The position numbers and the translations under genes were made by a program. This document shows positions 35,136 to 64,000 of a DNA stretch of 64,000 nucleotides, in pieces (positions within the stretch are counted from its first letter, which is position 1; each line of letters starts with the position of its first letter). The DNA lies in assembly GCA_005790545.1 (NCBI GenBank), contig SXUL01000086.1, positions 1 through 64,000 of the forward strand, written 5' to 3'. The DNA is from Planctomycetia bacterium. GTDB lineage: Bacteria > Planctomycetota > GCA-002687715. The notes under the pieces were generated by a model that was not told the DNA's origin, did not search any database, and saw only the letters and a program-made list of their open reading frames with translations.

Positions 35136-38100
35136 ATGACACCGCGCTACAGCTCCGGTCTTCTCGCAATCGGAACGCTCATTCTTGTCGCTCTGGTTCC
35201 CCCTGCGGGGATTGATGCTGGAGGGGATGACGAGCCGGTGCGCTTCGGCCGGGACATCCGGCCCATTCTGTCCGAGCGCTGTTTCCTCTGTCACGGACCC
35301 GATCCCTCGTCGCGCGAAGCCGAACTCCGCCTCGATCTCCGCGCAGAGGCGCTGCAGGAGCGGGATGGCATCCGGCCGATCGTGCCGGGCAATCCGGAGG
35401 CGAGCGAAATCCTGCGGCGCATGCGTGCGCACGGCACGGAGGACGTCATGCCTCCGCCCTCTGCCAAGAAGCCCGCACTCAGCGAGCGCGAGGTCGCGTT
35501 GTTCGAGCGCTGGATCCGGGAAGGCGCGACATACGAGCCCCACTGGTCGTTCACGGCGCCGAAGCGACCTGCTGTTCCAGACGCGAGTGCTTCTTCATGG
35601 CCACGCAATGCCGTGGACCACTTCGTGCTCGTGGAACTCGAACAGCGCGGGCTCGATCCAGCTCCGGAAGCGGACAAGGCAACACTGCTGCGGAGGGTGT
35701 TTCTCGACCTCACGGGGCTGCCTCCGGAACCGGAGGATCTGGATGCCTTCGTCGCGGACGCTGATCCGGAAGCGTACGCGCGCTGGGTGCACCGGCTGAT
35801 GCATGAGGAGCCTTGGCGTTCGCGTCACGCGGAACGCATGGCAACGCCCTGGCTCGATGCGGCGCGTTACGGCGACACCAACGGCATTCATATGGACGCC
35901 GGGCGGCAGATGTGGGCTTGGCGCGACTGGGTGCTGTCCGCGTTCCGCGACGGCCTGCCTTTCGACCGCTTCGTGCGTGATCAACTCGCTGGCGACCTCA
36001 TTCCCGGGGCCACGCGTGAGCAACTCATCGCCAGCGGGTTTCATCGCAATCACGTGATCACCGACGAGGGCGGTGCCATCGACGAGGAGTATCGCGTTGA
36101 GTATGCCGTGGATCGGGTGAACACCACCGGCACGGTGTTTCTCGGTCTCACGCTCGGCTGCGCGCGCTGTCACGAACACAAGTTCGATCCGGTGAGTCAG
36201 GAGGAGTACTACCGGCTTTTCGCCTTCTTCAATTCCAACGACGAGAAGGGGCTCTACTCGCAGGAACCGAATGCCAACCGTGCCTTCGAGCCGTCCATGC
36301 GCGTTCCCACGCAGGACGAGTCTGTGGAGCTTGAGCGCCTGCGCAGCGCGGTAGCGGACAAGAAGACGGCCATCGAGACGCGCTCGCCGGAGGATGCGGC
36401 AGCGTTCGCCACGTTCCTCACCGCGGTTCCGGCTGGAGCTGGTGCCCGCTGGAATCCGCTGCCGGCCCAGAGCGCTGCTTCGACGGATGGAGCCACATTG
36501 GCGTGTCTTGAGGATGGTTCGGTGCGCGCGACCGGTGTGAACCCGGTGCGTGACACGCACCAACTCGTCCTCCGGACCGCAGAGACCAGGCAACGCCTGT
36601 TGCTCCTTGAGGCACTCGCCGATGCCGAGGGGAAGGGGCGCGTCGGTCGTGCGCAGAATGGCAATGCCGTGCTCACCGGCATCAAGGCCATGGCCGTGTC
36701 GGAGCGCGAGCCGGCCCTGCGCATGGCGGTCGAGTTCATCTGGGCCTCTGCGGACAACGAACAGCAGAACGGTGACTTCGATGTCGTGAACGTTCTCGGC
36801 AACGACCTGGGCGAGGGTTGGGCCGTGGATGCTCATCGTGCCGCGGGCGGCCGGGCCGCGCTGTTTCTCAGCCGAGAGCCTTTCGGATTCGAAGGCGGCA
36901 CAAGGCTCGAACTCACCTTGGAGTATCGCTCACAGCACGCGCACCACGCGTTCGGGCATGTGCGCTTCGCGACTTCGGGCGTCTTGGACGCAGCCCTCGA
37001 CAAACTGCCAGTGGCGGATTCCCGCTGGCTCGGCACCTGGCCCTACAAGGCGAGCTCGCGTTATGCGGGCTACGACGAGGTCTTCGGCCCGGAACGGGAC
37101 AAGACCATCGATCCCGCGAAAAAATATGCACCGGACAACTATTCCTGGGTTTACGTGGAGGGGCTCGCTGATGGCCGCAGGAATACGAATCTTCCGCAGG
37201 GCGAAGTGGTGTCATTCGCCGGCAAGCGGCTGTACGTCCCGTCACGACGCACGCTGAAGGCCGGCTTCAGCAGCGATGACGGCATCCAGGTGTTCCTCGA
37301 TGGCGAGCGCATCTTCGAGCGGCGCGTGGATCGCGGAGTGGGTGTTGATGATGACACGCTGGAATGCGTTCTCGAGCCGGGCGTGCATGCGCTGGTTCTG
37401 AAGATCGTCAACACCGGCGGTGTCGGCGGGTTCCAGTGGCGCGGGCGTGATGCCGAGGGCACATTGCAAGGCGCTCTCGCGAGCGCTTTGCTGCCGGCAG
37501 AGGTGCGTGCACGCTGCGTGGCGAGGCTCGACGAGCGCTTGTTTGAAGACTGGCGCAATGAGGCGTCCCCCGAGCACAGGACACGACGCCGGGAGTTCAT
37601 CGCTCTCGAAGCAGAATTGAAGCTGCTCGAAGAGCGTGTGCCAGAGACCATGGTCATGCGCGAGCTGGCAGAGCCGCGTCAGGCCTACGTACTCATGCGC
37701 GGGCAGTACGACCAACCTGCCAAGGACCGCCCCGTCACGCGCGGTGTACCCGCGGCGTTGGGCTCGCTTCCACAGGCGGCGCCGCAGAACCGCCTCGGCC
37801 TCGCCGAATGGCTGGTGAGTCCGGCGAACCCGTTGCTCGCGCGTGTCACCGTCAATCGATACTTCGAGATGGTCTTCGGTACGGGGCTCGTCGAGACGAG
37901 CGAGGACTTCGGACTGCAAGGTGCGTGGCCGAGTCACCCGGAACTTCTCGATTGGCTGGCGGTGGAGTTCCGCGAGAGTGGTTGGAATACGAAGCACATG
38001 CTCGAGTTGCTCGTGACTTCAGCCACCTATCGCCAGTCTTCCCGCCTGAGACCTGAGGCTGCTGAGAAGGACCCGGGGCGCCGCTGGCTTTCGAGCTATC

Positions 38101-38741
38101 CCCGTCGGCGTCTTGGCGCAGAGGAGATCCGCGATCAAGCCTTGCACCTCGCGGGGTTGCTCGTGGAGAAATTCGGCGGACCGTCGGTGAAGCCTTACCA
38201 ACCCGAAGGGCTCTGGCAGGAAGTCGCCATGCTCCAATCGAACACGCGTGTCTACGAACAGGGAGAGGGAGAGGCCCTGCATCGACGCAGTCTCTACACT
38301 TACTGGAAGCGCGCTTGTCCACCGCCTTCGTTGCTGACGCTGGATGCTCCGACGCGGGAAGCCTGCGTGGTGCGGCGCAGCACCACCAACACGCCTTTGC
38401 AGGCGCTTGTGCTCATGAACGATGTGCAGTTCGTGGAGGCAGCGAGAAAACTCGCGGAGCGCACGCTTGCGAGAACCGGCACGGCAGGGGATCGCGAGAT
38501 CCTCGCGAGCCTCTTCCGACGGGTCACGGGACGCGCCGCGGAGCGCGGCGAATTGAACCGGCTGGAGTCTGCTCTTGAAGCAGCGCTTGAGCGCTACACA
38601 GCGGATGCCAGCGCTGCGGCTGCACTCCTCAGTGTGGGCGCATCCATGCGTGACGCGACGCTTCCTGCTCCGCGTCTCGCTGCGCTGACGCTGCTGGCAA
38701 GCACGCTGCTGGTCCTTGATGAAGTGATCTCCCGGAGGTGA
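35136..38741 (+). CDS. Planctomycete cytochrome c / DUF1549 / DUF1553 protein
   Basis: A 1201-residue exported protein with the domain set typical of Planctomycetes. After a signal segment ([17 protein letters not shown]) comes the cytochrome-C-like domain with haem motif CFLCH in [15 protein letters not shown]. DUF1549 follows ([15 protein letters not shown] through [15 protein letters not shown]) with a second CxxCH, [11 protein letters not shown]. The middle (about 480-820) is beta-rich and may bind carbohydrate. DUF1553 follows ([55 protein letters not shown]). Function is unproven; genomic habit links these proteins with polysaccharide breakdown. The DUF1501 gene begins 3 bases after its stop, so they are almost certainly cotranscribed. 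ATG 35136 is selected by the signal peptide. Confidence 0.88.
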   Translation: [1201 protein letters not shown]

Positions 38742-38744
38742 GGC

Positions 38745-40226
38745 ATGGCTGAACAACCGACCGATGATCTTCTGCGTGCGCGTCTCCTGCTCACTCGGCG
38801 TCGCTTTTTCGCGGCCGGTGCGACGGGCCTCGGTGCGGGCCTTTCCGCACTCGCGTTGTCGCAGTTGCTCGGATGCGCTCATGAGGAGAAGGCGCCCCTT
38901 GCCGGCGGCCCCGTCGCGCTGGGTCCGCACTTTCCACCGCGCGCGAAGCGCGTCATCTACATGCACATGGAGGGCGGCCCCAGTCAGTTGGATCTCTTCG
39001 ATCACAAGCCGGGCTTGAAGGCTCAATTCAACAAAGACTTGCCTGATTCCGTGCGCATGGGCCAGCGCCTGACCGGCATGACCAGCGGTCAGAAGCGTTT
39101 CCCCTCGGCACCCTCCATCTTCAAGTTCTCGCGGCATGACAACGGCGGCGACGGGTTGTGGCTGAGCGAGCTGCTGCCCGAAACCGCCAAGATCGCGCCG
39201 GAGATGCTGCTCATCCGGTCCATGCACACGGAAGCCATCAACCACGAGCCGGCCATCACCTTCATGCAGACCGGTACGCAGCAGCCAGGTCGCCCGTCCT
39301 TCGGAGCGTGGACCTCCTACGGTCTCGGGAGTGCCAACAAGGATCTGCCGACGTTTGTGGTGCTGATCAGCCAGGGGCTCGGCAACATGCAAGCGTTGGC
39401 AGCGCGCTTCTGGGGCTCGGCTTTTCTGCCCAGCGAGCACCAGGGCTGCAAGCTCCGTTCGGGCGCGGACCCCGTGCTGCATCTTTCCGACCCCGCAGGT
39501 GTCGCGCGCGCCGATCGACGCCGCATGCTCGACATGCTCCTCGATCTCAACGAACGCGAGTACGAACGGAGCCTCGATCCGGAGGTGCGGACGCGCATCG
39601 CGCAGTTCGAGATGGCGTACCGCATGCAGATGTCCGTTCCGGAACTCACGGACTTCAAGGACGAAAGCGAGGAGACGCTCGCACTCTATGGGCCGGATGT
39701 GAGAAAGCCGGGCACCTTCGCCGCGAACTGCCTGCTCGCACGGCGCCTGGCTGAGCGCGGCGTGCGTTTCATCCAGCTCTACATGCGCGGTTGGGACCAG
39801 CACAACAACTTGCCGAAGGAGATGCAGGCCCAGTGCGGGGCGGTGGACCGCGCCCAGTCGGCGCTGGTTCAGGATCTGAGGCGCCGCGGGTTGCTGGACG
39901 ACACGTTGGTCCTCTGGGGCGGGGAATTCGGGCGCACAGTCTACTCGCAGGGCGAACTTTCGGACACGAACTACGGCCGCGACCACCACCCGCGTTGTTT
40001 CAGCATGTGGCTGGCCGGGGGCGGCGTGCGGCGTGGCCATGTGCACGGGGCCACCGATGACTTCTCCTACAACATCGCCGAGAGTCCGGTCTCGGTCCAT
40101 GATCTGCATGCCACGCTGCAGCATCTGCTCGGGTTCGATCATCAGCGGCTCGGCTACCGCTACCTCGGGCGCGACATGCGCCTGACGGACGTGTTCGGGG
40201 AAGTGCGCCGCGAACTGATTGCCTGA
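38745..40226 (+). CDS. Tat-exported DUF1501 protein
   Basis: A 493-residue protein of the DUF1501 (sulfatase-fold-like) family. The N-terminus has a twin-arginine signal (TRRRFFAAGATGLGAGLSALAL) with a possible lipobox cysteine further on (LLGC), implying export in folded form. The core begins with YMHMEGGPSQLDLFDHKPGL and includes GRPSFGAWTSYGLG, RLAERGVRFIQLYMRGWDQHNN, WGGEFGRT and GRDHHPRCFSMWLAGGG, residues that could hold metal. GGAGGTGAGGC precedes the ATG. It partners the DUF1549/DUF1553 protein, an arrangement repeated many times in planctomycete genomes. The reaction is not known. Confidence 0.88.
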   Translation: MAEQPTDDLLRARLLLTRRRFFAAGATGLGAGLSALALSQLLGCAHEEKAPLAGGPVALGPHFPPRAKRVIYMHMEGGPSQLDLFDHKPGLKAQFNKDLPDSVRMGQRLTGMTSGQKRFPSAPSIFKFSRHDNGGDGLWLSELLPETAKIAPEMLLIRSMHTEAINHEPAITFMQTGTQQPGRPSFGAWTSYGLGSANKDLPTFVVLISQGLGNMQALAARFWGSAFLPSEHQGCKLRSGADPVLHLSDPAGVARADRRRMLDMLLDLNEREYERSLDPEVRTRIAQFEMAYRMQMSVPELTDFKDESEETLALYGPDVRKPGTFAANCLLARRLAERGVRFIQLYMRGWDQHNNLPKEMQAQCGAVDRAQSALVQDLRRRGLLDDTLVLWGGEFGRTVYSQGELSDTNYGRDHHPRCFSMWLAGGGVRRGHVHGATDDFSYNIAESPVSVHDLHATLQHLLGFDHQRLGYRYLGRDMRLTDVFGEVRRELIA

Positions 40227-40259
40227 GGCAACCCGCGCGGCGCAAGTAAGATCCCGGCC

Positions 40260-41549
40260 ATGGCGGTCTGGATGGTGGCGGTGCGCTGGCTCGTGACGCG
40301 GAGAGTCGCTCTCGTTGCGGCGCTCTGCATCGCGGCCACCGTGGCGGCCATGATCCTCATCACTGCGGTGATGGATGGATTTCGTTCCCGCATCCATACC
40401 CACATTCGCTCCATGGAGCCGGATCTCTGCCTGCAGTGGAAGGGGAGCCCGCCCCGCGATCTCTTGGCGCGCATCGAGGCGGAGTTGCGCGGCGAAATGG
40501 CCGCGAGCGGTGGCCCCTTGGTTGCGCTCGCGCCGCATTACGAAAGTGTCGGCGTGGTGCTTGCCGAGAGAAACGGCGCCTGGCGCATGGATGGAACACG
40601 CCTCATCGGCGTGGACTGGGCACGTGAGCAAGCGGTGCTCGATCTCGGTGCAGTGATTCATGCAGGTCCCGGTGAGGAACCCGGATCCGATCTTCTCGGA
40701 GGCCGGGCCATGCCGGGCCTTGTGGGTGGGCGTTCGCTTCTCCGAAGCCTTGGTGCCATGACGGGTGATGAAGCGACGGTCATGACCGGGCGCATGGACA
40801 AGCTCGGTTCCGCCGAGGCTCATTTCGAACCAGCGAGCCGCATTTTTGAAGTGACGGGTTCCCTCGATTCCGGGCGCGACGAGTTGGATCAGCGACGCGT
40901 GCTGCTCTCGCGCTCCGAGCTCTTGCGCCTGCGGCGTGGAAGTGTGACTGCCGGGCCGGATGCGACGAGCGTGCACGCGCGCCTCGCGGATGCGTTGCGC
41001 GCCGATGCACCCGCGGTCGCGAAGAAACTCGCGCTGGATCACCCCTTGCTCGTGGTGACCAGTTGGGAGGATCGCCACCGCGGCCTCGTGGATGCACTCA
41101 CGGTGGAGCGGCGCGTGATGGCCATGGTTCTCGCCTGTGTGGTGGCTTTCAGCGTGGCTCTCCTCGGCGCGTTGCAACTGATGATGGTGCTCGAGAAGGC
41201 GCGCGATGTGGGCGTGCTGCGCAGCATGGGGCTCACGCGCCGTGAGGTGCTCGCCATCTTCACCTTGCAGGGGGGCGTGCTCGGCCTTGTCGGCGTGCTG
41301 CTGGGATGCTGGGCGGGCATCGCCATCGTGCATCATTTGGACGGACTCGTGCTTGCGCTCGAAGAGGCGGGGTTCCCGATCTTTGATCCTTCCATTCCGT
41401 ACCGCACCCGCAGCATTCCGGCCAGGCTCGATGACACACTCGTCCTTGGCATCGGCCTTGCAACCTTCATGCTCACACTGATCATGTCGGCACTGGCTGC
41501 ATGGCGTGCGGTCCGCAACGATCCCCTGAAAGCGCTGGGCTGCGAATGA
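40260..41549 (+). CDS. LolC/LolE-type ABC transporter permease (first of two)
   Basis: A 429-residue permease of the MacB/FtsX family. One membrane helix near the N-terminus (ALVAALCIAATVAAMILITAV) is followed by a large extracytoplasmic domain (about 45-275). Three C-terminal helices come last, with the family segment KARDVGVLRSMGLTRREVLAIFTLQG. This topology is that of LolC/LolE, which pull lipoproteins out of the inner membrane, and of related mechanotransmission pumps. Its stop overlaps the ATG of the ATPase gene (ATGA), and a second permease follows. The cargo could be lipoprotein or another lipid-linked molecule. Confidence 0.82.
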   Translation: MAVWMVAVRWLVTRRVALVAALCIAATVAAMILITAVMDGFRSRIHTHIRSMEPDLCLQWKGSPPRDLLARIEAELRGEMAASGGPLVALAPHYESVGVVLAERNGAWRMDGTRLIGVDWAREQAVLDLGAVIHAGPGEEPGSDLLGGRAMPGLVGGRSLLRSLGAMTGDEATVMTGRMDKLGSAEAHFEPASRIFEVTGSLDSGRDELDQRRVLLSRSELLRLRRGSVTAGPDATSVHARLADALRADAPAVAKKLALDHPLLVVTSWEDRHRGLVDALTVERRVMAMVLACVVAFSVALLGALQLMMVLEKARDVGVLRSMGLTRREVLAIFTLQGGVLGLVGVLLGCWAGIAIVHHLDGLVLALEEAGFPIFDPSIPYRTRSIPARLDDTLVLGIGLATFMLTLIMSALAAWRAVRNDPLKALGCE

Positions 41550-45524: not shown

Positions 45525-47059
45525 GACTTCGCTTCCTCGCACGGGCGCACTTCCACGCGGTTGCCAGCCGTGGCGATGACAATCACGGCCGTTCCTTCGT
45601 CGATGAAGCGCCCATCGCTCACCACATCCACTTCATGGCCGGCGAGGAGCGCGCGGCCGGATGGGCGCAGGGTCGTGAGGGCCTTCCCTTGTGTCCCCAC
45701 AGCGATGGTGACGAAGCCCGTCGGCGTGACGGCACCGAGAGCCGCAGGACTCACTCCGCCTGCAGCCACAGGCTCGAGGATGGGCGGAGCGAGAAAAGCC
45801 TGTCGGAAAAAGGGCAGATGGCGCAGCGCAGGGAAGAGCAAGAGTGCCGCCGTGACGGAAGCGATGAGGCTGATGAGGAAGCGCAGGCCGAAACCGCGCA
45901 CGAGGGCCCAGTCGCCGTCCGAATCGGGAATGGTTTGTTCGAGGAAAGTCTGCCCCGGGAGATGAACCGTGGCGGCGTAGATGGAGAAGAGGATCAAGAG
46001 CACACCGGCGACTCCGGCGACACCGAAGCCGGGGAGGATGAGCAGTTCGACGGCGAGCAGCAGCAAGCCGAGGATCAGGAGCCCGGCGGTGATGAACAGC
46101 GGGGGACCTTCGCCTCCCTGCAGCATGAACCCGGCGATGAAGCAGACCAAGGCCAGCGCACCGGAGAGCCCCATGCCCGGCGTCTTGAACTCGATGGTGA
46201 GGAAGAAGAGTCCGAGGGCGATGAGCAGGATGCCGACGAGCGAATCGCCGAAGCTGAGTCCGAACAGGCTGCGGGGTTCGAGGGCGAGCTTGCGCACCTC
46301 AAGGGGCAGCGTGCAGCCGAGGGCCGTTGCAGCATCCTCGCGCGAGAGCGCTTGTGGGAGGAGCAGTCCGGGAATGCCCACGGTGTTGCCGCCGGAACTG
46401 AGCACGAGTTCCTGCCCCGCAGCCTTCCAGATGGTGGTGGTCGCACCACTCTCCAGAGGGCCGTCGCGGCGGGAAGAGGAGGCTTCGACGAGTCGCGTCC
46501 CGCGTCGATCCTTCAGCAGCAAGAGCTCCCGTTCGGGATGCACCATGGCGTCCAGCAGCGTCAGCGGTGCGAAGGTTCCGTGCGCCGCTGCACTCTTGAC
46601 GATGCGATCCATGCGATCGTTGAGAGCGCGAGCCTCGCCGCTGAAATCGGCAGCACCGCGAGTGCTGATTTCCGCGCTCGGAGCGGCCACCACTTCAGCA
46701 CACGCCATGAGCACGAGGGCAGCCGCGCCATGCGCGTGCTCGGGGACATAGCCGACCACGCGCACAGTCCGCTCACGAAGCGCGAACAAGTCGTCCACGA
46801 CCGCTTCGGCAACTTCGAGCGAACCATGCTGGCTGGTCAGTTCGAGAAAGATGGTCTTTGTGCCATCTGCAAGGAGAGAGTCGCGTTCGCGGCGCCAGGC
46901 CTTGAGGAAGGCCTCATCCAGCGGCATCCCGTTGGGAGCAACAGTGCCCTCAAGGTCTGCGGCAGCGGGCATCGCAATCACGCGCACGGACGCTTGCGCG
47001 GGCAGCAGAACTGCCGCGAGGAGGAGCAGGCCGAGAATGCGCGCGAGGAACCGTGCCAT
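45521..47059 (-). CDS. nfeD: Long NfeD protein with ClpP-class N-terminal domain
   Basis: A 512-residue NfeD1b-type protein. Signal segment (LARILGLLLLAAVLLPAQA), an extracytoplasmic ClpP-like domain (about 30-240), four to six membrane helices (about 240-410) and a C-terminal OB domain (VTIAVGTQGKALTTLRPSGRALLAGHEVDVV in outline). In archaeal and bacterial relatives the ClpP-like part is a Ser-Lys protease that cuts stomatin. Here the segment where SAGAY-type sequence carries the nucleophile reads AHGAAALVLMA, so the serine seems to be missing and the domain may be inactive. It heads the NfeD-NfeD-FloA operon and diverges from cutA, sharing a TATA-rich patch near 47080. Confidence 0.82.
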   Translation of the reverse strand: MARFLARILGLLLLAAVLLPAQASVRVIAMPAAADLEGTVAPNGMPLDEAFLKAWRRERDSLLADGTKTIFLELTSQHGSLEVAEAVVDDLFALRERTVRVVGYVPEHAHGAAALVLMACAEVVAAPSAEISTRGAADFSGEARALNDRMDRIVKSAAAHGTFAPLTLLDAMVHPERELLLLKDRRGTRLVEASSSRRDGPLESGATTTIWKAAGQELVLSSGGNTVGIPGLLLPQALSREDAATALGCTLPLEVRKLALEPRSLFGLSFGDSLVGILLIALGLFFLTIEFKTPGMGLSGALALVCFIAGFMLQGGEGPPLFITAGLLILGLLLLAVELLILPGFGVAGVAGVLLILFSIYAATVHLPGQTFLEQTIPDSDGDWALVRGFGLRFLISLIASVTAALLLFPALRHLPFFRQAFLAPPILEPVAAGGVSPAALGAVTPTGFVTIAVGTQGKALTTLRPSGRALLAGHEVDVVSDGRFIDEGTAVIVIATAGNRVEVRPCEEAKS

Positions 47060-47107
47060 GAGCGCCACTGCCATGCATCCTATACGCTTTCCGGCGAGAG
47101 AGAATGC

Positions 47108-47458
47108 ATGCCCGCAGAGCCGCGCGTCACCTTGAGTCTCACGACCGTCGCGAACGCGGCGGAGGCGGAACGACTTTCACGCGCGCTGGTGGATGAGGGG
47201 TTGGCAGCTTGTGTGACGGCGCTCCCCGGGGCGCGTTCGATCTACCGTTGGCAGGGAAGGGTGGAGGCTACCGAAGAGGTGCTGCTGCTCATCAAGCATC
47301 CGACCAGCGCGACACCACTCCTTGCGCAACGAGTGCGCGAACTGCACGGCTACGAGGTTCCGGAACTCATCCACTTCGAGGCGACGGGCGGGCTCGAGAG
47401 CTATGTCGCGTGGGTTCTGCGTGCCGGCAAAAACGAAGAGAGCCCGCCAACCTCGTGA
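47108..47458 (+). CDS. cutA: Divalent-cation tolerance protein CutA
   Basis: A 116-residue CutA1 protein: a small trimeric ferredoxin-like fold that binds divalent metals such as copper, with a still unclear physiological role. VTLSLTTVANAAEAERLSRALVDEGLAACV, SIYRWQGRVE and VPELIHFEATGG (with the family P-E-[IL]) are the standard signatures. ATG 47108 is preceded by GGCGAGAGAGA. The long ORF that contains it in the track is a shadow of the minus-strand nfeD gene. It diverges from nfeD and converges on rpmG. Confidence 0.92.
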   Translation: MPAEPRVTLSLTTVANAAEAERLSRALVDEGLAACVTALPGARSIYRWQGRVEATEEVLLLIKHPTSATPLLAQRVRELHGYEVPELIHFEATGGLESYVAWVLRAGKNEESPPTS

Positions 47459-57540: not shown

Positions 57541-57562
57541 TCAAGTGCCCGGAGCAGCAGCC

Positions 57563-58453
57563 ATGATCCGCATCCAATCCATTGTCCGCACGACAGGGTT
57601 CGTGCTCGCAGCGCTGGCGAGCAGCGTTGCTTTCACGTCAGGTCCTCCGGCCGGTTTCACCGGTGGCGGAGGCGAGTCGAGTTGCGTCGCGTGTCACTCG
57701 GGAGGCACGGTCAACAGTGGGCCTGCGGTCTTCGTGACCGGTGGCGCCGCGAGTGTCGCCTTCACAGGCTCGGCACTGGTCACGGCGGCGTTCACCACCA
57801 CACCGAGCATCAAGCACGGGTTCCAGTTCTGTGTGCGTGATTCCGCCAACGCTCTCGTGTCCGGCTGGTCGGTGAACAACACCACGGTGCAGAAGACCGG
57901 CAGCTTCCATGTGAACCACCTGGCTGCAGGAACCTCGCTGACGGGTTGGAATGCGACCCTTGCTCCCAGCGCACTGCCTGCCGGTCCTCTTTCCGTTTAC
58001 GCCGCAGGGAATCAGACGAACAACAACAATGCTCCGAGCGGGGACCTCATCTACACGACGAGCCACAAGATCTACCAAGCCGGTCTCAGTGCTGCGGCCA
58101 GTTGGCCGCTCGGGTCGCTGCAGACGTTGAGCCTCTCGGCACCGACGCGTCCGAGTGACAGCTATGTGCTCGCGCTTTCAGAGCTCTCGGGCAGCACGAG
58201 CCTTGGCGGCGTGTTCACGGTGCCGGTGAATCTGGCAGGCATGTTCACGCCGCTCGCATGGGACCCGGCCTTCAGTCCCTTCTTCATGAACTTCATCGGG
58301 ACGCTGGATGTGGCTGGCAGCGCCAGCGCGGCCATGTTCATCCCGGCTTTGCCAGTGCTCAGCGGGATGACGATGCACTTCGCCTACGCGACGGTGAATC
58401 CGTCCACACTGGCCGTGACGGAGGTCTCCAACGCTGTGGACCGCACGCTCTGA
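57563..58453 (+). CDS. Secreted protein with CxxCH motif (choice-of-anchor V-like)
   Basis: A 296-residue exported protein. A signal peptide (TTGFVLAALASSVAFTSG) is followed by GGGGESSCVACHSGGTVN, in which CVACH could bind haem c. The Gly-rich ESSCxxCH context is that of the choice-of-anchor V/Reeler-like domain. A beta-sandwich follows (VTAAFTTTPSIKHGFQFCVRD, SHKIYQAGL), then a second beta region with no recognised family. ATG 57563 is preferred over the GTG at 57545 because CGGAG is correctly spaced. Redox function is only possible, not shown. Convergent with the ATP-grasp gene. Confidence 0.6.
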   Translation: MIRIQSIVRTTGFVLAALASSVAFTSGPPAGFTGGGGESSCVACHSGGTVNSGPAVFVTGGAASVAFTGSALVTAAFTTTPSIKHGFQFCVRDSANALVSGWSVNNTTVQKTGSFHVNHLAAGTSLTGWNATLAPSALPAGPLSVYAAGNQTNNNNAPSGDLIYTTSHKIYQAGLSAAASWPLGSLQTLSLSAPTRPSDSYVLALSELSGSTSLGGVFTVPVNLAGMFTPLAWDPAFSPFFMNFIGTLDVAGSASAAMFIPALPVLSGMTMHFAYATVNPSTLAVTEVSNAVDRTL

Positions 58454-59394: not shown

Positions 59395-59468
59395 GGGGTT
59401 TCCTTCGGCGCGGACCTTAGCACTCCGGCTTATGCTCGCGGGGCCGGCAGGCCCGGCAGGAGTTGATG

Positions 59469-62231
59469 ATGCTCATGCGCACGCTGGTGCTCTTCATGCT
59501 CGTGGCTCAGCTCTTCGCTCAGGAACCACTGCGGCCATGGACGCCTGAAGATTTCTCGGGGCTTGTCACGGTGGAGGGCGCCGAACTCTCCGCCGATGGA
59601 CGGCTGGCACTCTTCGAGATCAGCCGCCCCGATGTGAAGCAGGACCTCCGACGCACGAGTCTGCATCTCTCGCGTGATGCGGAAGAGCCACGCCAGATTC
59701 TCTTCTCCCATGAAAGCTGCGGCGGCGGGCACATTGCGCCGGATGGCTCTGCCATCTCATTCCTCTCACAGCGGATGCCCGCAGCAGGTCAGGGGCCGGA
59801 GGATGCCGAGGATGCGGACACGGACGAGGAGCGTCCGGACCAACTCTGGTTGCTCCGCCTCGATGGAGGCGAGCCCCGATGTCTCTCTTCGTTCCCGCTG
59901 GGTGTCAGTCGCGCTGAATGGGCGGGTCCTCGAGCACTGCTTGTCGTGGCCCGCGAGCGGAGAAGTGCGCGCGAAGTGGAAGAGAAAGAGGCCCAAGATG
60001 AATCGGTGGTCGTGGAAGGCGCATCCGAGTGGGCCGCTGCATCCGAGCATGTGTTCCGGATCGAACTCGATGCGGACTTCGTTGTGTCGAAGATCAGGCG
60101 CCTCACGGATCAACCGGGACGGATTGCCGGTCTGGAAGTCGCCCCTGACGGTTCGCGTGCAGTGCTGGTGCGCATCACTTCTCCTCAGCATGAGGTGGAT
60201 GAACGCGATCCGCCTGTGGTGACTCTGCTCGACACCAGCACCGGTGCGGAGCTGACGCTCTTCGCCGAGCGCAAGAACAGGCCGCTCGAATTCTCGTGGC
60301 AGCCGGACAGCCGTGCTTTCTTCGCGCTCATGCCGCGTTCGACCGAGGATGGCGCCAGCACCGCGGCAGTGCTGGATCTCGTGCGCTGGCAGGACCGCAA
60401 GGTCGAAGCCCTCGATCTCGGCTGGGAGGCTGGCGCACAACCAGGATCACTCGCAGCCCTGAATGATGGTTGTCTCGTGATCCTCATGCGCGGCTGTGTT
60501 CCGCGTCCCGTGCGTGTGCGCCATGGTCTCGCGACCGCGTTGGTGGAGGATCTGGGCGCGGAGGTGCCGGGGCACATTCATCATTGGGTGCGTGCGCGGG
60601 ATGCGTCGCGCGTGATGTTTGTCGAGGGCACGGCCATGCAGCCGGATCGGTGGCATGTGGCAGAACTCGGCGCATCAACATTGAGCGCAGCGCGACTGGT
60701 CTTTGAACCGCACTCGGAACTCACGCAGCGCCGCTTCGCGGACGCGCGCGTGATCCAGTGGATCGGCGCCGCAAAGGAAGGCGTGGAAGGCATCCTCTTC
60801 TCGCCTCCGGATGCCGGCACGAAGCCGCTGCCTCTCATCGTCATGCCCCACGGCGGCCCCTTCGCTCTCGATTACGACCGTTTCGAGGAAGGCTACGCCT
60901 ACGCGCCGCAGCTCTATTGCCAGCGCGGAGCGCGCGTGCTCTACGTGAACTACCACGGTTCGTCGGGCTACGGACTCGCGTTTGGTGAGTCCATTCGCGG
61001 GCGCAATTACGAATTGGAGTTGGAGGACATCCTCGCGGGCGTCGAGGCGCTCGTGCAGGACGGGCTCGTGGATGCGAACGCTCTTGCCGTGGGCGGCTGG
61101 AGCAACGGCGCCATTCTTGCGACGGCGCTTGTGAGCATGGCCGATGTGTTCGCGCCGCGCTTCCACCTCCGCTTCAAGGCCTGCATCGACGGTGCGGGGG
61201 ATGTGAACTGGACCAGCGATTACGGCAACTGCGCCTTCGGGCCGGTCTTCGATGACTTCTACATGGGCGGGCCACCGTGGAAGCGCGCTGCCGACTACAT
61301 CAGGAAGTCGCCGCTGTTCCACGTGGAGAAGGTGACCACACCGACGCTCATCTTCTTCGGCACGGAAGACACATCCGTTCCCACGGAACAGGGCCATGAA
61401 TGGCATCGCGCTCTGCAGCAGCTCGGCAAGGCACCGGTGCGCTTCATCCTGTTTCCCGGCGAGGAACACGGGCTCAGAAAGCCGAACTCTCAACTCAGGA
61501 AACTGCGCGAGGAAATGGTCTGGATGGAGCGCCACTTCTTTGGTGCGGCCGTCGACAGCCCACCGCTCGCGAAGGGCTCGCCGCTGGAGTTGTTGCTCGC
61601 GCAGCAAGGGCGCGCGAGCAGCGTCCTCGGCCTGCCTATGCAGGGCGTGCTTGCTCCCGAGACAGTGTCGTACGAGGGCCTCGCTGTAGGCGTGCATGAA
61701 GTCACTCTCGCACAGTGGCAGTCGGTCTTCCCGGACCGGCAGATTCCGCCGGGGCGCGAGAATTGGCCCGTGACGGGCATCACGGAAGAGGAGGCCATGG
61801 AATACGCCGCGCGCCTCACGCAGCGCACAGGGACAGCTTGGCGGCTGCTCACGTTGGATGAACAGGAAGCGCTCCCGCGCGGGCCGGATGAGAACAACCT
61901 CGCCTGGTGGGCAGGCTTCGAACCCGCACCCGCGGAAGCACGTGCGCTGAGAGAACGCATCGAGGCGCTGCCGGAACGCGGAGCCCCCCCGCTCCTCGAA
62001 GCGGCGGGTTCACGCCGCGGCGGTGTGTTCCACACAGCGTCCAAGCCCGCGCTCATTCATGATGCGGGCGGCAATGCTCAGGAATGGTGCCTCGCGGCCG
62101 ACGGAGGCACCTGCCTCGCTGGTGCGAGCGCCGTCACCGTGCTGGACATCACCGGTCAGGCCGAGATCGCTCCGTTGCGCTGGACGGGCCTCCGCGTGGC
62201 CATGGCCGGGCCCCCAGCGCAACCGCGCTGA
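59469..62231 (+). CDS. Secreted S9 prolyl-oligopeptidase-like protein fused to an FGE-like domain
   Basis: A 920-residue exported protein (signal MLMRTLVLFMLVAQLFAQ). The first 400 residues form a beta-propeller-like region with WD-type strands (DQLWLLRLDGGEPRCL). The alpha/beta-hydrolase domain of family S9 follows: MPHGGPFALDYD, nucleophile Ser545 in GGWSNGAIL, Asp634 in FGTEDTSVP and His667 in GEEHGL, so it should be active on peptides. Residues about 720-915 are unlike any S9 tail: VGVHEVTLAQW, ITEEEAMEYAARLTQRTGTAWRLLTLDEQEAL, GGNAQEWC, GLRVA match the formylglycine-generating enzyme/SUMF1 fold. The catalytic GGSW-cysteine segment is absent, hence a binding role is likely. AGGAG precedes ATG 59469 by 6 bases. 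Confidence 0.83.
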   Translation: MLMRTLVLFMLVAQLFAQEPLRPWTPEDFSGLVTVEGAELSADGRLALFEISRPDVKQDLRRTSLHLSRDAEEPRQILFSHESCGGGHIAPDGSAISFLSQRMPAAGQGPEDAEDADTDEERPDQLWLLRLDGGEPRCLSSFPLGVSRAEWAGPRALLVVARERRSAREVEEKEAQDESVVVEGASEWAAASEHVFRIELDADFVVSKIRRLTDQPGRIAGLEVAPDGSRAVLVRITSPQHEVDERDPPVVTLLDTSTGAELTLFAERKNRPLEFSWQPDSRAFFALMPRSTEDGASTAAVLDLVRWQDRKVEALDLGWEAGAQPGSLAALNDGCLVILMRGCVPRPVRVRHGLATALVEDLGAEVPGHIHHWVRARDASRVMFVEGTAMQPDRWHVAELGASTLSAARLVFEPHSELTQRRFADARVIQWIGAAKEGVEGILFSPPDAGTKPLPLIVMPHGGPFALDYDRFEEGYAYAPQLYCQRGARVLYVNYHGSSGYGLAFGESIRGRNYELELEDILAGVEALVQDGLVDANALAVGGWSNGAILATALVSMADVFAPRFHLRFKACIDGAGDVNWTSDYGNCAFGPVFDDFYMGGPPWKRAADYIRKSPLFHVEKVTTPTLIFFGTEDTSVPTEQGHEWHRALQQLGKAPVRFILFPGEEHGLRKPNSQLRKLREEMVWMERHFFGAAVDSPPLAKGSPLELLLAQQGRASSVLGLPMQGVLAPETVSYEGLAVGVHEVTLAQWQSVFPDRQIPPGRENWPVTGITEEEAMEYAARLTQRTGTAWRLLTLDEQEALPRGPDENNLAWWAGFEPAPAEARALRERIEALPERGAPPLLEAAGSRRGGVFHTASKPALIHDAGGNAQEWCLAADGGTCLAGASAVTVLDITGQAEIAPLRWTGLRVAMAGPPAQPR

Positions 62232-62397: not shown

Positions 62398-64000
62398 TCA
62401 ATTGCAAGTGAATGCCGCTGGCACGAATCCACTGACGCCACCCGGGTTGGTGATGGAGACCCACAGGGTTGTGATCGTTCCCGCTGCATGTGGTGGTGCA
62501 GTGCAGGTCAGCAGTCCTGAATTCTGGAAGGTCACAGCAGTCGCGGCTGAGAACCCGAACATCACCGCAGCCGATGGGTGAAAATTGGCTCCACGTTTGG
62601 AAACGACGGTGCCCCCGGCAGCAGGTCCACTATTCGGAGTCACAGAACTGATCGATGGCGCAAGCCACGTGAACTGGCCGCTCCATGTTCCTGCCGTGGT
62701 GCCTGGATTGGTGACGACGACGCGACCGGTTCCGGCGGCATGCTCAGGTGCCGTGAGGTAATGACCCATTGATCCAAGACAGCGACATTTGCGGCAGCAT
62801 CGCCGCCGATGGTCACCGTTGCACCCGGCATGAAACCATCACCAAAGATGGCCAGAGCTTCTCCGCAACTGGTGAGAGCCGTCGCTGGGAGGACCGAGTT
62901 GACTACGGCAACCGACGACACCAGCTGCGTGTCAACGGGGAGCGTGGTGGCCGCCAGCGGCGCCGAACTCGTTGGATTCGGCCTGAGAGCTGCCCCAGTG
63001 AGGGTGATCCCGACCAAGCCAGTCACGTGCGGTACCACGCCCAGCCCAGGCAGCGATGTCACCGGGAGGCTCCCTGTCATGCGGAGATCGAACGCGTAGA
63101 GCGCGCCGGACGCTATTCCCATGAAGCAGCCCACATCCCAGGAGAGAGTGCTCCCAATGACGCTTGTCGATGGCGCGGTGGCATCCAAGCCCGTCATGGA
63201 GAGGCCCGGGACAAATTGCGGTATGGACTGTGAGGAGTCGATCCCGAGGCCCAGCTGGCCATCGGTGTTCTGGCCCCATCTCTTGACACGTCCGTTCCCG
63301 AGGACGGCGCTGGAAGAATATGAGTTCGGGCCACCCGCGCTGAGCGTGAGCACATTGCTCAGAGTGGTTGGCGGAATGAGCTGAGGAGCGGCCGACATAT
63401 TGACGGATCCCCCGAAGCCTGGCTGCCCGACGGTGTTGCTGCCCCAAGCCTTGATGGTGCCATCGAGTGGTTCGCGCCTGCTGCAATGGCCACTACATCG
63501 CTCAAGGAGGACTGGGAAATGAGCGATGGAAATTGTTGGTTGATCGCGTTGTTGATTCCCAACTGCCCATTATCGTTCTTGCCCCAAGTCTTCACCATTC
63601 CGATTCCGAGCAAAGCAAGGCTGTGGTTTTGACCGGCCGCTATGGCAACGACGCCACCAAGGTTTGCTGGCGGGATGAGTTGTGGCGTTGATTGATCAGT
63701 TGTGTGACCCAGTCCCAATTGGCCTAAAGAGTTGGTGCCCCAAGATACCACAAGGTCTGCAGTGTGGAGAAGCTTGTGTTGCCTCCCAATCCACGCGCGC
63801 CATTACTGTTGTTGCCACAAGACTGAATCTGACCAGTGGGGAGCACCACCAGCATGAAGTTGCTTCCCATTGCGATGCGGTTTGTGAGGTGTGGTGTCTG
63901 CGCCGAGACCGGCGCGACCAGAAAGTTGAGCAAGAATAGTGCCGCGAAGGTGAGCCATGAATTGCGCGCCCCTCTAGCGCTGCGGATTGGCACCAGACCA
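62398..64000 (-). pseudogene. Frameshifted RCC1-repeat / TIG-domain secreted protein gene
   Basis: Four minus-strand ORF pieces read as one protein. Piece one (from about 63993, possibly further upstream outside the window) has a signal peptide (WLTFAALFLLNFLVAPVSAQ) and a first RCC1-like strand. Piece two has RCC1 blades (VVSWGTNSLGQLGLG, VKTWGKNDNGQLGI, NHSLALL). Piece three has IKAWGSNTVGQPGFGG only if the frame changes, then VKRWGQNTDGQLGLG and a TIG domain (IFGDGFMPGATVTIGG). Piece four completes two TIG domains (TAPEHAAGTGRVVVTNPG, ITPNSG-like SVTPNSGPAAGG). Frame changes lie near 63750, 63463 and 62755. The third is explained by one lost base: ITCTAPEH would be restored. The first two seem to remove parts of a blade. 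It is either a decaying gene or consensus error; the original role would be a surface propeller protein. Confidence 0.75.

Follow-up and report, generated by a model that had tools for sequence, protein, structure and literature searches.

Peptidases of the S9 family cleave short peptides that enter via the side of a beta-propeller. The best solved structures for the protein described here, both by fold (target TM-score 0.85) and by sequence (3.2e-32), are the S9C-type Geobacillus S9 carboxypeptidase (8wt1) and Deinococcus S9 peptidase (5yzm-5yzo). They consist of a propeller and an alpha/beta hydrolase with a Ser-Asp-His triad, and their chains stop after the hydrolase. The published serine motifs of S9A, S9B, S9C, and S9D are GGSXGGLL, GWSYGGY, GGSYGG, and GGHSYGAFMT, respectively, and S9 enzymes vary in oligomeric state, with oligomeric state and cap opening used to control access (PMC12871690).

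The fold of the formylglycine-generating enzyme (FGE/SUMF1; Pfam PF03781) is marked by the motifs EVT, RLPTxxE, GNxxEW, and GFR, and the enzyme itself has a segment carrying RGGSW and cysteines. The FGE fold is related to C-type-lectin-like folds, and its superfamily includes TvpA and other variable proteins of diversity-generating type (DGR), PvdO, ToxD, and EgtB, which are found in differing contexts; EgtB requires an N-terminal DinB domain. PorK, GldK, and GldJ of the type IX secretion system have an FGE fold that lacks the active-site cysteines. In PorK, a secretion-ring lipoprotein that is not fused to a peptidase, this cysteine-free fold acts as a docking hub (PMC12421860).

The window, a 64,000-nucleotide stretch of planctomycete DNA, brings these two families together in one gene of 922 codons at 59463..62231 (+). 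Its start may be TTG at 59463 or ATG at 59466, 59469, or 59475. The first 20 residues (59463..59522, +; ...VAQLFA-QEP) form a probable Sec signal peptide, judging by sequence and by an AlphaFold2 helix at residues 2-18, in line with the secretion implied by the original prediction. A hydrophobic N-terminal stretch is present in 68 of the 73 relatives that begin at M, and no lipobox is found in the window protein. Next come a beta-propeller cap at residues ~24-430 (59532..60752, +), delineated by AlphaFold2 strands and Foldseek matches to the S9 peptidases 8wt1 and 5yzo; the hydrolase; a linker at residues 693-729 (61539..61649, +; pLDDT 61-76) in which SPL at 706-708 is conserved; and the FGE-like domain, within the span first marked out (61630-62231), which corresponds to residues ~723-922. 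The product is probably an exported, periplasmic S9 serine oligopeptidase.

The contig belongs to a draft genome of 2.87 Mb in 133 contigs, a setting in which two genes could be merged by a frameshift or an assembly error. However, the frame is intact over all 922 residues, with none of the stops or frameshifts between the domains that had been named as grounds for doubt. Sister-genome orthologues are full-length with an identical layout, which excludes an assembly join, and some 80 further species, isolates and complete chromosomes among them, repeat the full-length layout. The relatives already refute such an artefact, whose chance is negligible.

The alpha/beta-hydrolase domain occupies residues 481-692 (60903..61538, +) and matches PF00326 with an E-value of 1.7e-39. 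Together with the Foldseek match to 8wt1, which shares both propeller and hydrolase, this bears out the claim of a complete S9 catalytic domain. The triad is intact: Ser547 lies in the nucleophile motif GWSNGAIL (residues 545-552; 61095..61118, +), followed by Asp636 (61368..61370, +), assigned from the S9 order Ser-Asp-His, and His669 (61467..61469, +). All three residues, as well as the pentapeptide GWSNG, are invariant in 80 of 80 aligned rows. Neither GWSNGAIL nor the invariant GWSNG fits any of the four published S9A-S9D motifs, and the Dpp5 equivalog NF053518 scores 80.7 bits against an NCBIfam cut-off of 900. Relative to 8wt1 and 5yzm-5yzo, the window protein has GWSNGAIL where they have GGSYGG, shares 22% identity, and goes on beyond the hydrolase into the FGE-like domain.

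This domain comprises residues 730-914 (61650..62204, +). PF03781 matches residues 743-876 of the whole protein (E 9.2e-06, 25.9 bits) and the isolated C-terminus more strongly (E 4.7e-07, 30.2 bits), both passing the curated cut-off of 23.3 bits; it also matches 75 of 76 related C-termini, with a best E-value of 8.3e-19. The motifs by which the domain was first recognized are all in place: GVHEVTLAQW at 743-752, AMEYAARLTQRTG at 778-790, GGNAQEWC at 869-876, and GLRVA at 909-913. When a profile built from the 76 related domains was searched against the PDB, the leading matches were PorK/GldK (2.6e-14), ToxD (3.1e-12), PvdO (1.9e-11), and TvpA (2.5e-10), with weaker ones to EgtB-IV (1.6e-08), SUMF2 (4.3e-05), and bacterial FGE (5e-04). 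The AlphaFold2 model of the domain has a pLDDT of 92.4 and a pTM of 0.88. In a Foldseek search of the PDB with this model, the first 30 matches are all FGE-fold or related variable proteins, at modest TM-scores of about 0.3-0.47, among them 5aoh (1.5e-05), 2y3c (1.6e-05), PvdO (6.5e-05), and FGE itself (3.6e-03). Lack of a structural match, which had been named as grounds for rejecting the assignment, is thus not what was found. As judged by sequence profiles and the predicted structure, the window C-terminus has the FGE fold.

The catalytic segment of the enzyme is gone. The stretch from GGNxxEW to GxR (residues 869-911; 62067..62195, +) is ~40 residues shorter than in true FGE and is without RGGSF/W and the two cysteines. 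As the original prediction held, an RGGSW-like motif is absent from the window protein, and it occurs in 0 of 76 rows; the same 76 rows have no conserved cysteine after GNxxEW. The GN-to-R distance has a median of 42 residues in the fused family, whereas a true FGE of a sister genome reads GNVWEW...RGGSFLCDVDVCHGYR...GFR over ~83 residues. The site-bearing stretch has therefore been lost, which goes beyond mere mutation. The protein is not a formylglycine-generating enzyme proper, nor is it an ergothioneine sulfoxide synthase of the EgtB/OvoA type, as Pfam detects no DinB-like iron-binding domain in it. Several of the matched FGE-fold proteins, such as EgtB and OvoA, are enzymes, and the domain might likewise act through a different active site. 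This is very improbable for a domain with the FGE-site segment deleted, no conserved cysteine, no RGGSW, and no DinB-type iron-ligand domain. The window genome also encodes a strong FGE-type protein (C83, 2.9e-69) with an RGGSF motif. Another partial FGE-sulfatase match lies at a contig end (G000:C71:6799-7104) in a long frame of 889 residues.

The fusion was originally described as uncommon, a view that does not hold. Scanning 84,980 species genomes with an orthologue alignment yielded 212 relatives, and among the best 80 of these nearly all extend to residue ~912; the exceptions are L089 and L110, truncated where their contigs end, and L081, interrupted by a frame change. These best 80 amount to about 80 species and fall into one ancient S9 clade. 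The many phyla represented include Planctomycetota, Acidobacteriota, Bacteroidota with Rhodothermota and Balneolota, Calditrichota, KSB1, Aminicenantota, Gemmatimonadota, and Krumholzibacteriota. The closest are the planctomycete metagenome genomes Baikal-deep-G176 and TH-11nov19-101, and the fusion is also found in isolates (for example Flexithrix dorotheae DSM 6795 and Fodinibius halophilus) and in complete chromosomes (CP070727, AP024675). Plasmids searched gave only unfused S9 proteins of low identity.

Two whole-genome surveys, done without the pattern filter of the relatives scan and counting fused genomes from full-length matches, found the fusion in the window's phylum in 16 of 392 genomes and, in a second phylum (that of genome G392), in 13 of 297. 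Scores are bimodal: fused proteins reach at least 645 bits, the minimum coming from an incomplete gene on a contig edge, and unfused S9 proteins reach 440 bits at most. In both surveys (392 and 297 genomes), the upper score group contains no clade member without the FGE-like domain. The fusion, a variant of two known families, is widespread and ancient rather than peculiar to the window genome; no description of it was found in the open-access literature searched, though absence there is not proof.

A tree of the hydrolase domain (45 fused and 36 unfused proteins), built by a quick method and rooted at the midpoint, needs only one change, with an SH-aLRT support of 100 on the fused branch; on this sequence evidence, the fusion arose once. 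The fused rows were collected with a fused-protein alignment and may be biased toward fusion, a bias not fully shared by the whole-genome surveys. The serine motif follows the same division, being GWSNGA[IV]L or a close form in the fused clade and GWSAGG, GWSYGG, or GGSYGG in unfused neighbors. The nearest neighbors in the tree (support 88) are the unfused S9 paralogues L128, L160, L161, L144, and L012, with GWSAGG or GWSNGG; these end 5-41 residues past the hydrolase and are separated from the fused clade by the branch with support of 100.

The extra domain is under constraint. With a mean pairwise identity of 0.42, it varies less than the propeller (0.34) and more than the hydrolase (0.58). 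For eight close pairs with measurable dS, rough Nei-Gojobori estimates of dN/dS in the FGE-like domain are 0.09-0.27, with one pair at 0.40, and exceed those of the hydrolase in every close pair. Residues E746, T748, Q751, P769, G870, E874, and R911 are invariant, although many such residues are general positions of the FGE fold and may be structural only. Since dN/dS is low and these residues never vary, the domain is, by sequence comparison, maintained by purifying selection, as is the hydrolase.

One suggestion for such a domain had been that it gates or inhibits the peptidase before export or maturation. There is precedent for regulation by a C-terminal segment in at least one S9 enzyme, the plant S9D peptidase CGEP, which autocatalytically removes its last 15 residues (PMC12871690). 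Here, however, the addition is a folded domain of ~185 residues under purifying selection, and SPL is the one conserved element of an otherwise variable linker, with no conserved processing motif recognized in an unsystematic look. A domain that stays covalently attached, with no cleavage motif recognized, makes inhibition a weaker proposal than targeting to a surface ligand, and an improbable one.

The proposal of targeting holds that the domain binds a glycan, peptidoglycan, or an envelope peptide and directs the peptidase to its substrate, as C-type-lectin-like folds do. The kinship of the FGE and C-type-lectin-like folds and the signal peptide are consistent with it, as is the presence in the Foldseek list of 2y3c, a treponemal variable protein (1.6e-05), and, weakly, of TaqVP. 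Conservation is nonetheless moderate throughout the domain, and no hypervariable surface is evident. Targeting of this kind is possible but unlikely.

Comparison of gene neighbors at 80 loci found no recurring gene family, except for synteny within the window's own family, so the genomic context offers no hint of a docking partner. Upstream of the gene, the 302-residue product of 57545-58450 (+) looks exported, carries a CVACH (CxxCH-type) haem motif, and has no Pfam match; proteins resembling it are encoded close to the orthologue in sister genomes. Downstream, four overlapping frames with RCC1 and IPT/TIG matches at 62398-63999 (-), of which 62640-63398 was scanned, look like pieces of a single RCC1/TIG surface-type protein whose frame has been broken, either through real decay or through draft-sequence errors. 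Elsewhere in the window, a 607-residue frame at 45635-47455 (+) has a CutA1 domain at residues 501-595 only, its first 500 residues having no Pfam match, and a 1105-residue frame at 38022-41336 (-) has no Pfam match at 0.001.

By analogy with PorK, we favor, at a probability of roughly 0.6, a periplasmic S9 oligopeptidase of a distinct clade whose FGE-like domain would serve permanently, and without catalysis, in docking or assembly. The hydrolase would cleave short peptides entering under the propeller cap. The FGE-like domain would remain covalently attached and either keep the enzyme in an oligomer or tie it to a partner or ligand, much as PorK uses its repurposed FGE fold. Taken by itself, a role in assembly or protein docking has about an even chance by this analogy; recognition of a small ligand or glycan is less likely, and some other role less likely again. 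Assembly is placed ahead of ligand recognition because S9 enzymes use oligomeric state and cap opening for access control, a preference that is weakly supported. Counting against docking are the modest Foldseek TM-scores (0.40-0.47) and the divergence of the window copy at V744, H745, L749, and R784, where most relatives share other residues.

The fused clade is not covered by the published S9 motifs. Tentatively, at slightly under even odds, it may be a separate S9 subfamily, marked by GWSNGA[IV]L, whose FGE fold lost its enzyme function and became an obligatory structural part, for example in oligomeric state or substrate entry; such a subfamily would either predate the divergence of the phyla that carry it or have spread by early transfer. 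The unfused paralogues L128, L160, and L161, with their GWSAGG motif, would lend themselves naturally as controls for what the extra domain does. A PF03781 match in fused proteins of this type should not lead to annotation as either a sulfatase-modifying enzyme or a nonheme iron enzyme. Besides PorK/GldK, they present a second setting in which the FGE fold is retained without its chemistry, here attached to a peptidase.
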